60,477 nt of DNA from an uncultured Candidatus Nitrosopumilus sp. (GTDB lineage Archaea > Thermoproteota > Nitrososphaeria > Nitrososphaerales > Nitrosopumilaceae), in contig CAJQSS010000005.1 in assembly GCA_905616385.1 (NCBI GenBank), positions 1 to 60,477 of the forward strand, written 5' to 3'. The position numbers and the translations under genes are program-made. Below the pieces are notes generated by a model. The model did not search any database and was not told where the DNA came from. It saw only the letters and a list, made by a program, of their open reading frames with translations. Within the stretch, counting starts at the first letter, position 1; the number at the start of each line of letters is the position of its first letter. Positions 15,185 to 28,708 of the stretch are shown here, piece after piece.

Positions 15185-15411
15185 TGCTTGTTTCCTTTGC
15201 TCCAACATTTACAAGAACAAGAAACAGCTTTTCCAGTTTCCAAGTCTTTAACGACTTTATGAAAAACTCCTTCTCTAATTTTTGATTCAATCGTTATTGT
15301 TTCATATCTATCAGGGTCTTGATCCGAGGTAACCAATACTAATGTCAGTACACTAGCTGATAAAAATATTACAAAAATCCATACACAACAAATGCATAGA
15401 TACCATAACAA
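15157..15411 (-). CDS. Small membrane protein with Cys-rich tail
   Basis: 84 aa. The first 27 residues are strongly hydrophobic, a likely signal anchor. The tail ends in a cysteine cluster (CSCKCWSKGNKQC), perhaps a metal or Fe-S site; it does not match the CDGSH signature. A TTG at about 15336 would give a 59-aa soluble version. Its 3' end overlaps the next minus-strand gene out of frame. The upstream DNA is occupied by a C/D-box sRNA on the opposite strand. Function unknown. Confidence 0.5.
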   Translation of the reverse strand: MLWYLCICCVWIFVIFLSASVLTLVLVTSDQDPDRYETITIESKIREGVFHKVVKDLETGKAVSCSCKCWSKGNKQCAAMRTIG

Positions 15412-15434
15412 TATACAACAGAATAATCACAAAG

Positions 15435-15506
15435 TGGTTGCTGATGATTAATCAAACTCTCTAAGCTATACTGATAAAATGATGAGCATTGCCGAATTAT
15501 GAAGCA
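15435..15506 (+). ncRNA. C/D-box guide sRNA (copy 1)
   Basis: Box C is CTGATGA (15441-15447), D' is CTGA (15471-15474), C' is ATGATGA (15479-15485) and D is a degenerate ATGA (15499-15502). C to D spans 62 nt, typical for archaea. Guide 1 is 15448-15470 and guide 2 is 15486-15498 (GCATTGCCGAATT). The element aligns with copy 2 at 28632-28701 in its 5' end (AGTGGTTGCTGATGAT against AGTGGCTAATGATGAT) and in TTGCCGAATT-TGAAGC at the 3' end. Guide 2 is complementary to AATTCGGCAA, which I believe occurs in a conserved 23S rRNA segment. A TATA-like sequence at 15409-15417 fits transcription from about 15437. Confidence 0.7.
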
Positions 15507-15787: not shown

Positions 15788-16225
15788 TTATGCTTCCATT
15801 TGTTCTTTAAGTAATTTTTTTCTAACCAAAATTGGGATTTTGTAATATGCCCCCAAAGCCATAGCATCGGAAGCTCGATGATTTCGTAAGACTAGATCTT
15901 TTTTGCCAGTAAAGTAAAGATTTGCCCTTAAGACATCACCACTCCCATAGATTTTTACTTTAACCAAAGTTATCTCATTTTGTTCACAAATTTCTTCAAT
16001 CATTCGATAGATTGAAGGTGTCGGTTCACCTTCAGTGTCATCAAAACTAGAGATATGTTTTGCAACTTCGCCAGAAAATGCACGCATATGAAATTCTTTT
16101 CCATTATCAGCCTTCATAACCACCATTCCTTCAACAGCATAAGGATCAACAAATCCAACATAGTCAATTTTTACAGAGTCATAATCAGGTTCTGGCGCTT
16201 GATCAATATTCATCGTTTTACGCAT
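15788..16225 (-). CDS. Bifunctional nuclease (DUF151/BFN) domain protein
   Basis: 145 aa; MNIDQ at 16213 is an alternative start. The sequence from VKIDYVGFVDPYAVEGMVVMKADNGKEFHMRAFSGEVAKHI (about residues 18-60) through RNHRASDAMALGAYYKIPILVRKKLL near the end is the DUF151 domain. In plants, homologues have nuclease activity; in bacteria the role is less clear. The conserved RASDAMALA-type motif is present. It is divergent from the TrkH gene across a promoter region holding an exact 19-bp repeat. Confidence 0.85.
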   Translation of the reverse strand: MRKTMNIDQAPEPDYDSVKIDYVGFVDPYAVEGMVVMKADNGKEFHMRAFSGEVAKHISSFDDTEGEPTPSIYRMIEEICEQNEITLVKVKIYGSGDVLRANLYFTGKKDLVLRNHRASDAMALGAYYKIPILVRKKLLKEQMEA

Positions 16226-16354: not shown

Positions 16355-18169
16355 ATGTCAACTAATCCAGAAAAAGCAGTTTCGTATGTTCTAAGTAAAT
16401 ACGTTACAGAGTACATGGACAAGGATGTTCTGAAATTAGACATGGATACACGAACAAGAGAAGCTGCAACAATGTTACGACATTATGAAAGAGATGATAT
16501 CATTGTAATTGATAAACAAAAACTTCCAATAGGAATTGTAACAGACGAAGATATACTCAGTAAAGTGAGTGATGCAACTGTTTACGCAGAGGCAACTACA
16601 TTAAAAGAAATAATGAGTCAGCCATTAATTACAATAAGCGATAAATCAACATTACAAGATGCCTTGTATAAAATGCGGGACAATAACATTAGAAAACTTC
16701 CAATCATATCAAAGAAAAATCAAGTTGTAGGAATGTTATTTCAATCAACAATTGCAAATGCAATTAGAGATGCAACTGCCACTACCCCCCGACTTTTAAG
16801 CCCGCCAATAAAAGCAGTATTAGGAAACTTAGGATTTGTATTACAATTTGCAGGGGTATTATTACTTGTTCCAGCTGTAGTTGCAACATTATTAGAGGAT
16901 ACAGTTACTGCTTCAGGAATTTATTTGACCACAGTTCTTTTGTTAGTTACAGGGTTTTTCCTAAATTCGTATGGAGAAAAAGCAAGTCTGAATCTACAGC
17001 AGGCGTCAATACTAGTATTTGCTAGTCTGTTTTTACTATCATTATTTGGCACCATACCATATCTTTACGTATTTCCAAGTGATGAAACACCAGGAGAAGT
17101 ATTTGCAAATGCATTCTTTTCAAGTGCTGCAGGTTTTACCACTGGCGGGATATCATTATTTGATGAACCTGAAAAATTGTCACAAAGTTTCACGTTTTTC
17201 CGTAGTTACACACAGTTAGTAGGAGGAATGAGTTTCATCTATCTTGTAATGACTGCATTCTATCCAGAATCAAAATTGCAAGCAATGCGTGGATTTATTT
17301 CAGGAAAAACACTACACATGAAAGAATTATTTCTTACAATTACAGTTATTTTTACAATTTATATCGTAATTGTAGCTTCCTTGTTGTACATATTTGGAGA
17401 GCGAAATATTATTGATAATTTCTCGTTGGCGATGAGTACACTTTCAACGGGAGGATTTACACCCACATCGACAATTTTGAATGGTTTGTTATGGCAGGAA
17501 CATGTTGTATTAATGGGTGCAATGATACTAGGGGCTCTACCATTTACATTCCACTATGCTTTTGTTAGAAAAAAATTCTTGTCGCCAAAACTAGGAAAAG
17601 AAGTATTAACATATTTTGCAATTTTAGGAGGTGCAACTATTTTATTTGCAGGAATTAGTGGTTTGGATCCAATGCAAAGTGTATTTTATTCAGTATCAGC
17701 TAGTACCACTGCAGGGTTACAAATGGAAAGTTTAGCAGGTCTTAGTGGGGGAGCGCATACAATTCTAATTATTTTGATGTTTATTGGAGGATGTGGATTT
17801 TCAACTGCAGGCGGTCTGAAAATTTTTAGATTATTCCATCTTGTAGATATCAAAGCATATTTCTCAAAAATAAAAAGAAGTGAGTTATCAAGCCAAAGTA
17901 AAAAAGAACTCTTATCAACTTTAATTATTCTTGCATTATTCCCAACCATATCTGCAATTACAGGAGCACACCTTGCAGCAATAGAGGATGTACCATATCA
18001 AGATGCATTCTTTGAAGCAGCAGGAATAATTACCACAGGAGGATTATCAGCAGGAATAATTGATTCAGATACTGACCCTGCAACAATGGTAGTTTTAGGA
18101 TTTTTAATGATTTTTGGAAGACTAGAGATTATTGCAATTATCTACATATTTGTGCCTAGACTTAGTTAA
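16355..18169 (+). CDS. trkH: CBS-domain TrkH-type K+ transporter
   Basis: 604 aa. Residues 10-145 contain two CBS motifs (REAATMLRHYERDDIIVIDKQKLPIGIVTDEDIL and STLQDALYKMRDNNIRKLPIISKKNQVVGML), which bind adenine nucleotides and probably gate transport. From about 165 on it is a TrkH/KtrB-like channel with four pore repeats. Filter motifs are AAGFTTGGIS, LSTGGFTP, SASTTAGLQ and ITTGGLS. A CBS-TrkH fusion is unusual compared with TrkH, which relies on separate TrkA/KtrA proteins. No trkA is in the window. Confidence 0.92.
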   Translation: MSTNPEKAVSYVLSKYVTEYMDKDVLKLDMDTRTREAATMLRHYERDDIIVIDKQKLPIGIVTDEDILSKVSDATVYAEATTLKEIMSQPLITISDKSTLQDALYKMRDNNIRKLPIISKKNQVVGMLFQSTIANAIRDATATTPRLLSPPIKAVLGNLGFVLQFAGVLLLVPAVVATLLEDTVTASGIYLTTVLLLVTGFFLNSYGEKASLNLQQASILVFASLFLLSLFGTIPYLYVFPSDETPGEVFANAFFSSAAGFTTGGISLFDEPEKLSQSFTFFRSYTQLVGGMSFIYLVMTAFYPESKLQAMRGFISGKTLHMKELFLTITVIFTIYIVIVASLLYIFGERNIIDNFSLAMSTLSTGGFTPTSTILNGLLWQEHVVLMGAMILGALPFTFHYAFVRKKFLSPKLGKEVLTYFAILGGATILFAGISGLDPMQSVFYSVSASTTAGLQMESLAGLSGGAHTILIILMFIGGCGFSTAGGLKIFRLFHLVDIKAYFSKIKRSELSSQSKKELLSTLIILALFPTISAITGAHLAAIEDVPYQDAFFEAAGIITTGGLSAGIIDSDTDPATMVVLGFLMIFGRLEIIAIIYIFVPRLS

Positions 18170-28237: not shown

Positions 28238-28561
28238 TTAATTTTTCATTTTTTCTAACCATGTTTTTAAAAAAATATGATGTTTTTCACCAATCAAATT
28301 TAAATTGTAACCAACCTCACCTTCTTTTTTTATAATTGGAGTAAGAATTCCTTGTTTTTTCATAATTTGTAAAGTTGGATTATTTTTGAAGGGGTAACCA
28401 GGATCTTTGTTTAAAATTTTGAAATATTCTTTACCCTTAGTAGTTAATGTAAAAACAATATTTTGTCGATCAATAGAGTCAACAATAGGTTCTAAAATCC
28501 AATCATTTACCAAGTCAGATAAAATCAAATTATCATTAGATTTATTTTCAGTTATTCCCAC
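28238..28561 (-). CDS. Winged-helix-like small protein
   Basis: 107 aa. The pattern DLVNDWILEPIVDSIDRQNIVFTLTTKGKEYFKIL suggests a wing-like strand pair (FTLTTKGKEYF) of a winged helix, with a second similar segment at GILTPIIKKEGEVGYNLNLIGEKH. It may be a small DNA-binding or RNA-binding protein. It is divergent from the sRNA copy 2. Not assigned to a family. Confidence 0.55.
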   Translation of the reverse strand: MGITENKSNDNLILSDLVNDWILEPIVDSIDRQNIVFTLTTKGKEYFKILNKDPGYPFKNNPTLQIMKKQGILTPIIKKEGEVGYNLNLIGEKHHIFLKTWLEKMKN

Positions 28562-28631
28562 AAATATTAAAAAACTATAGACTATATGAAATTTGAATAG
28601 GATTATTTACTTTAAAAATTATAAAAACAGT

Positions 28632-28701
28632 GGCTAATGATGATACCAACGGGTTCTATCTGATTCCTCAATTTGATGATATTTTGCCGAATTTTGAAGC
28701 C
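28632..28701 (+). ncRNA. C/D-box guide sRNA (copy 2)
   Basis: Box C is ATGATGA (28637-28643), D' is CTGA (28660-28663), C' is TTGATGA (28673-28679), and D is a degenerate TTGA (28694-28697). Outside them GGCT (28632-28635) pairs with AGCC (28698-28701), the closing stem of a kink-turn sRNA. Guide 1 is 28644-28659 and guide 2 is 28680-28693 (TATTTTGCCGAATT). By the D+5 rule guide 2 would direct 2'-O-methylation of the C in AATTCGGCAAAATA. The same guide core is in copy 1 at 15.4 kb. A TTTACTTTAAAA promoter-like sequence is at 28603-28614. Confidence 0.75.
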
Positions 28702-28708
28702 CAATATT

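Follow-up and report, generated by a model that had tools for sequence, protein, structure and literature searches.

The segment at positions 28632-28701 of the window (the whole 60,477-nt stretch of Candidatus Nitrosopumilus DNA analysed here) is, at a probability of roughly 0.87, the gene for a box C/D methylation-guide sRNA directed at C1800 of 23S rRNA. It has a sister gene (15.44 kb) that carries the same rRNA guide, and the two likely stem from one ancestor. In the following we refer to the sister as copy 1 (group A) and to the RNA at 28.63 kb as copy 2 (group B).

Architecture of the two RNAs

Copy 2 occupies a gap (28562-28708) that is flanked on both sides by minus-strand genes, namely an ORF at 28238-28561 on the left and a succinate dehydrogenase membrane-subunit gene (Sdh_cyt, PF01127; 28709-29131) on the right. 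On the plus strand it reads GGCU-AAU-GA-UGA ... CUGA ... UGAUGA ... UUGA-AGCC. Copy 1, about 13 kb away, reads UGCU-GAU-GA-UUA ... CUGA ... UGAUGA ... AUGA-AGCA, and both are free-standing intergenic genes (Table 1). At 28.63 kb the boxes lie where the original prediction had put them, in the order C, D', C', D and enclosed by a 4-bp closing stem. Both copies show every element expected of a kink-turn, namely the stem, a bulge of 3 nt, tandem GA and, between C-box nucleotide 6 and D-box nucleotide 1, a compatible pair. Both also have the internal C'/D' boxes (TGATGA, CTGA), which are conserved in orthologues.

Table 1. Positions of the two sRNA genes and of their parts within the window
Feature	Position	Strand	Remarks
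Copy 1 (group A) C/D-box sRNA	15439-15506	+	Grammar match; A-type orthologues in 29/37 genus genomes
Copy 1 probable TATA-like element AATATAC, upstream (inferred)	15410-15416	+	Conserved in A orthologues
Copy 1 closing stem UGCU/AGCA	ends of 15439-15506	+	
Copy 1 C box AUGAUUA	15444-15450	+	Register by kink-turn geometry
Copy 1 D' guide UCUAAGCUAUA	15460-15470	+	11 pairs (2 G-U) with 23S 1814-1824
Copy 1 D' box CTGA	15471-15474	+	
Copy 1 C' box TGATGA	15480-15485	+	
Copy 1 D guide UUGCCGAAUU	15489-15498	+	10 bp with 23S 1796-1805; G15494 opposite C1800
Copy 1 D box AUGA	15499-15502	+	
Copy 2 (group B) C/D-box sRNA, both stem arms included	28632-28701	+	Kink-turn grammar match, orthologue conservation
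Copy 2 probable promoter element TTATTTACTTTAAA (inferred)	28603-28616	+	About 25 nt upstream; block partly conserved in B orthologues
Copy 2 closing stem 5' arm GGCU	28632-28635	+	Pairs with AGCC 28698-28701; compensatory stem changes in relatives
Copy 2 C box AUGAUGA	28637-28643	+	Nucleotide 6 is G
Copy 2 D' guide CAACGGGUUCUAU	28647-28659	+	Conserved across Nitrosopumilus
Copy 2 D' box CUGA	28660-28663	+	
Copy 2 C' box UGAUGA	28674-28679	+	
Copy 2 D guide UUUGCCGAAUU	28683-28693	+	11 bp with 23S 1796-1806; G28689 (D+5) opposite C1800
Copy 2 D box UUGA	28694-28697	+	Nucleotide 1 is U, wobble partner of C-box G6
Copy 2 closing stem 3' arm AGCC	28698-28701	+	

Such an architecture is rare. When both strands of the window were scanned with a grammar comprising the closing stem, 3-nt bulge, GA pairs, compatible C6-D1 pair, D' and C', exactly two sites were recovered, 15440-15505 and 28633-28700, both on the plus strand. 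There were no matches in 200 dinucleotide-preserving shuffles of the window, a result that gauges rarity and not discovery power, since the grammar was shaped on these same two RNAs. The exact 10-mer TTGCCGAATT, contained in both D guides, is found within the window at the two sRNA sites only; with one mismatch allowed, it is no more frequent there than by chance. No Rfam family exceeded its gathering score in the window, and the sub-threshold matches across 28632-28701 were almost all to C/D snoRNA families.

The shared guide and its predicted 23S rRNA target

The conserved 23S segment to which the shared guide had been matched, AATTCGGCAA, is present once in the 23S gene of the same genome (G000:C18:24707-27704), at nucleotides 1796-1805. 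Aligned with this gene, the D guides of copies 1 and 2 form 10 and 11 bp, respectively. The same G five bases upstream of the D box had been noticed in both copies, and in both it does stand opposite a cytidine, C1800, which aligns to E. coli A1672. The two RNAs very probably direct a methyl group onto the same rRNA nucleotide. In terms of score, the pairing is only marginal (24 and 26 for the D guides against the own 23S, compared with 25 at the 95th percentile of shuffled guides). Conservation therefore matters, and it is the grammar scan together with the comparative data that carries the case.

If the gene is expressed, as we infer, the ends of the RNA would form a C/D kink-turn recruiting L7Ae, Nop5 and fibrillarin. 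The D guide of copy 2 would then pair with 23S 1796-1806, and fibrillarin would methylate the 2'-OH of C1800. The sister RNA, having the same D guide, would use its D' guide to address a site 17-18 nt further on. That D' guide predicts G1818; shuffled guides score comparably, but the site adjoins that of the D guide. An additional base ahead of D' moves the prediction to A1817 in many relatives. Taken with C1800, this places the two predicted A sites 17-18 nt apart.

The same 23S site comes up in a different genomic context. Two DPANN tRNA-Met(CAU) genes (L169:3753-3905 and L191:5441-5593) have a 76-nt intron holding a C/D-box RNA of the order TGATGA-GTTTGCCGAGTT-ATGA-GGCGG-CGATGA-TTTTGTGTTACGGCG-CTGA. 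Its first guide appears to fit the 23S site of the window RNAs, and its second guide is similar to the complement of the 23S segment next to that site, so that the same sites would be served in the opposite guide order.

Distribution and conservation

The pattern TGATGA-N(1-12)-TTGCCGARTTNTGA was found in 32 of the 61 genomes searched, every one of them in the window's genus. It was absent from 24 genomes of other families, and the reversed-pattern control gave no match in the 61 genomes. Within the genus (37 genomes), A occurs in 29 and B in 21, with both in at least 17 by our own count from the flanks and from matches to the B D' guide. A scan of 84,980 species genomes returned at least 118 stretches. 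Among the matches listed, these belonged overwhelmingly to Nitrosopumilaceae (Nitrosopumilus, Nitrosarchaeum, Nitrosopelagicus and Nitrosomaritimum); besides them there were the two DPANN genomes, plus a small number of bacterial matches that lack the upstream boxes and are put down to chance. A-type RNAs are spread across Nitrosopumilaceae, and B-type RNAs are found in Nitrosopumilus and Nitrosopelagicus.

The boxes are kept in both A and B orthologues. Conservation is high over the sRNA and its promoter and falls off in the flanks; in 25 deduplicated B orthologues, 20-nt blocks average about 0.8-0.9 identity inside and about 0.5 outside. The A locus is syntenic, its downstream neighbour (window 15788-16225) being found near 93 of 115 A loci. 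Further on, at 16355-18169 (+), the window encodes a transporter of the TrkH type, in which CBS domains are matched twice, most strongly near the N-terminus.

Given the short gap adjoining the Sdh_cyt gene, copy 2 might be taken for a piece of coding sequence, or for a kink-turn that regulates the adjacent minus-strand genes in cis. We regard this as highly improbable. Differences of single nucleotides in the D'-C' spacer of B orthologues speak against coding, and group B resides in at least two gene neighbourhoods.

The boxes and the closing stem do not vary independently. Across 107 A and B sequences, C-box nucleotide 6 and D-box nucleotide 1 form U-A in 96 and G-U in 8, the latter being the window's B clade; the remaining three, listed as G-A, are in our reading alternative registers, U-A once the usual register is applied. 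The outer stem pair, too, has changed in the B clade of the window, to G-C, and in four sequences the inner pair of the closing stem has changed to C-G. The original prediction was right about the NUGA form of the D boxes. However, calling them degenerate needs correction: kink-turn geometry makes AUGAUUA the C box at 15.44 kb, and the coupled C6-D1 pairs indicate that the C-box partner compensates. The change from AUGA to UUGA is one event in one clade and therefore does not count as many.

These observations bear on whether both copies might simply be chance C/D-like sequences in A+T-rich DNA. The boxes are short, the guide-target score by itself is marginal and the one-mismatch 10-mer is not enriched within the window, all of which would fit such an explanation. 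Yet the shuffled windows yielded nothing, the RNAs are kept in most of the genus, and changes in the closing stem and boxes are coupled. We consider chance vanishingly improbable and already refuted by conservation.

Relationship between the two copies

As judged from its distribution, the A/B pair is old and not a local duplication, and A and B most likely, though not provably, descend from one ancestral RNA. Identity of the D guides by itself leaves common descent likely but unproven, because the guide bases are forced by the 23S target. More telling is a 26-nt module, TGATGAGTTTGCCGAATTATGAAGCA, that the two groups have in common in Nitrosopelagicus and several further lineages. Since it includes the unusual AUGA box and a G that is unpaired with the target, it favours common descent. 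Under such a scenario A would have kept the layout of two adjacent sites, while B would have kept the D half together with a different, conserved D' guide.

An alternative is that the two RNAs arose independently, or that one acquired the C'-guide-D module of the other by recombination and not through duplication of the whole gene; the guide would then be common to both because selection favoured one 23S site. For such cases, Dennis et al. 2015 (PMC4644070) name recombination, convergence and the mobilisation of guides as alternatives. The target does require guide identity, a nearly identical module sits in a tRNA intron of two DPANN archaea, and B occupies two different neighbourhoods: EF-2/MqnA/Sdh in the window's clade and, in many other relatives, the vicinity of a GCD14/TrmI-type methyltransferase gene. 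Against it stand the 26 nt common to A and B in several lineages, whose unpaired G and AUGA are not required by the target, and the placement of the guide, which in both RNAs is on the D side, together with a closing stem that they share. On balance, we find separate origin or module transfer doubtful, though a serious contender, and prefer common ancestry.

The suggestion of a duplicated guide RNA with one half re-targeted can accordingly be retained with corrections. One guide is shared, as the D guide for rRNA, and the first (D') guides are unlike each other, just as had been described; the local duplication has to be dropped, and re-targeting is unproven, the B guide being conserved and no target having been found for it. 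Likewise, the near-identity reported for the 5' ends holds for stem and C box but does not extend to the AGTGG beyond them, which is not conserved in orthologues; its presence upstream of both window copies is probably due to chance.

Resemblance of the ends is in any case to be read with caution. In G006, a close relative that is 98% complete (the window's own genome, G000, is about 60% complete), a candidate C/D sRNA at 907138 (-) (L363) has the GATGCTGATGATTA 5' end and the AGCAT 3' stem as in group A. Its guides differ from those of group A, and its D' guide forms 10 bp to 23S C2615. Shared ends without shared guides mean that stem and C-box style are no proof of paralogy.

The D' guide of group B

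The B D' guide is CAACGGGUUCU in Nitrosopumilus, where it is nearly invariant, GACGAGGUUCU in Nitrosopelagicus and CCAAGGUGUUCU-like elsewhere. It has no lineage-wide target in 16S or 23S rRNA, no convincing one among the tRNAs of G006 (43 tRNA matches) and nothing convincing in SRP, RNase P or 5S RNA. Several candidates were considered and rejected. The best tRNA match, the variable arm of tRNA-Ser(GCU), offers 9 contiguous pairs (one G-U) and more past a mismatch, but was discarded because, from species to species, changes in the guide are not mirrored in the tRNA. With 23S A2408 there are 9 pairs from position -5 and a mismatch at -4, no better than for shuffled guides, and the changed B D' guides of other lineages lack a recurring homologous site. 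Pairings with the 16S helix-45 loop, 16S 863-873 and 16S 150-157 are not kept across lineages. Recurrent matches of GAACCCGTTG in genus genomes were the sRNA itself, with no tRNA among the loci retrieved. In two relatives a stretch downstream near B (L015:2237-2246 and L037:4137-4146) contains GAACCCGTTG and is complementary to the B D' guide; as the genome of the window has GAACCCGTTG nowhere but in the sRNA, these copies are probably fortuitous.

It is conceivable that both RNAs are working guides and that B's main job is done by the D' guide on a non-ribosomal RNA, its 23S guide being a redundant relic. Near-invariance of the D' guide across Nitrosopumilus and the lack of a fitting rRNA target speak for this. 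However, the B D guide is conserved equally well, and the D box and stem of B have changed in a compensated way, from which it follows that the D guide is probably used. We therefore consider this reading rather unlikely. The idea that the B D' guide acts on some non-ribosomal RNA (an mRNA, possibly), directing its modification or serving as its chaperone, is in itself tentative and we give it little credence; if true, a single sRNA of a mesophilic archaeon would link a 23S site with a second RNA species. The GCD14/TrmI-type tRNA methyltransferase gene beside B in many relatives might be a hint or a coincidence.

One-sided guide replacement is not confined to the A/B pair. Some A-type orthologues (L018, L083, L119, L190, L011 and L133) have kept the 23S D guide next to an entirely different D' guide, and are thus further cases of it.

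C/D machinery in a close relative

Genes for fibrillarin (PF01269), Nop5 (PF01798) and L7Ae (PF01248) were found in G006. Those for Nop5 and fibrillarin are adjacent at L333:347-2507 (-); the fibrillarin has a VVEEK-rich repeat at its N-terminus, and the Nop5 a GGRRE-rich repeat at its C-terminus. When the whole genome of G006 was scanned with a simple grammar, A and B ranked first and second, and few other candidates rose above shuffled controls, although such a scan is not a census. A strong candidate double-guide C/D sRNA for 23S A2046 and A2020 (G006 numbering) lies at 1127890 (-) (L374), about 40 nt downstream of a same-strand tRNA gene, and could form a tRNA-sRNA dicistron with it.

Comparison with known systems

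The gene class is well known, and the pair adds a clear new case to it, with one guide kept and the other swapped; our literature search for Nitrosopumilus C/D sRNAs found no paper. Like archaeal box C/D sRNAs in general, the window RNAs carry two guides and have their boxes in the order C, D', C', D, with a kink-turn closed by a stem; they obey the N+5 rule and have an rRNA target. Most archaeal sRNAs that target rRNA are dual guides for sites within 100 nt of each other, and the two predicted targets of A are likewise less than 100 nt apart (PMC7994747). The window RNAs differ in having AUGA or UUGA as D box with a compensating C box, in that no Rfam family reaches threshold for the pair, and in their host, a mesophile with few detectable C/D RNAs. 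The coupled change of C and D boxes shows that seemingly degenerate D boxes are best judged as a kink-turn pair, which would improve C/D gene finding in these poorly charted archaea.

The intron-encoded C/D sRNA of Pyrococcus pre-tRNA-Trp (sR50; PMC7994747) belongs to the same RNA class. The DPANN tRNA-Met intron RNA even carries the 23S guide of the window pair, whereas the window RNAs are free-standing and intergenic.

The closest precedents are duplicate archaeal sRNAs sharing one guide, as described by Dennis et al. 2015 (PMC4644070). In Methanopyrus kandleri, sR24/sR25 and sR56/sR103 similarly have one guide in common while the other guides differ, but the second guides of sR24/25 are indel variants (PMC4644070), whereas the D' guides of the window pair are unrelated. 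Among the seven species compared in that study, shared-site duplicates occurred only in M. kandleri and I. hospitalis, the two richest in sRNA genes (PMC4644070). By comparison, the present pair has an unusual host setting: in place of hyperthermophiles with very large repertoires (PMC4644070), its hosts are mesophiles with a small detectable C/D repertoire, and the same-site pair persists across their genus. It thereby offers a many-species record of archaeal guide evolution, in which the rRNA site fixes one guide while the other half changes.
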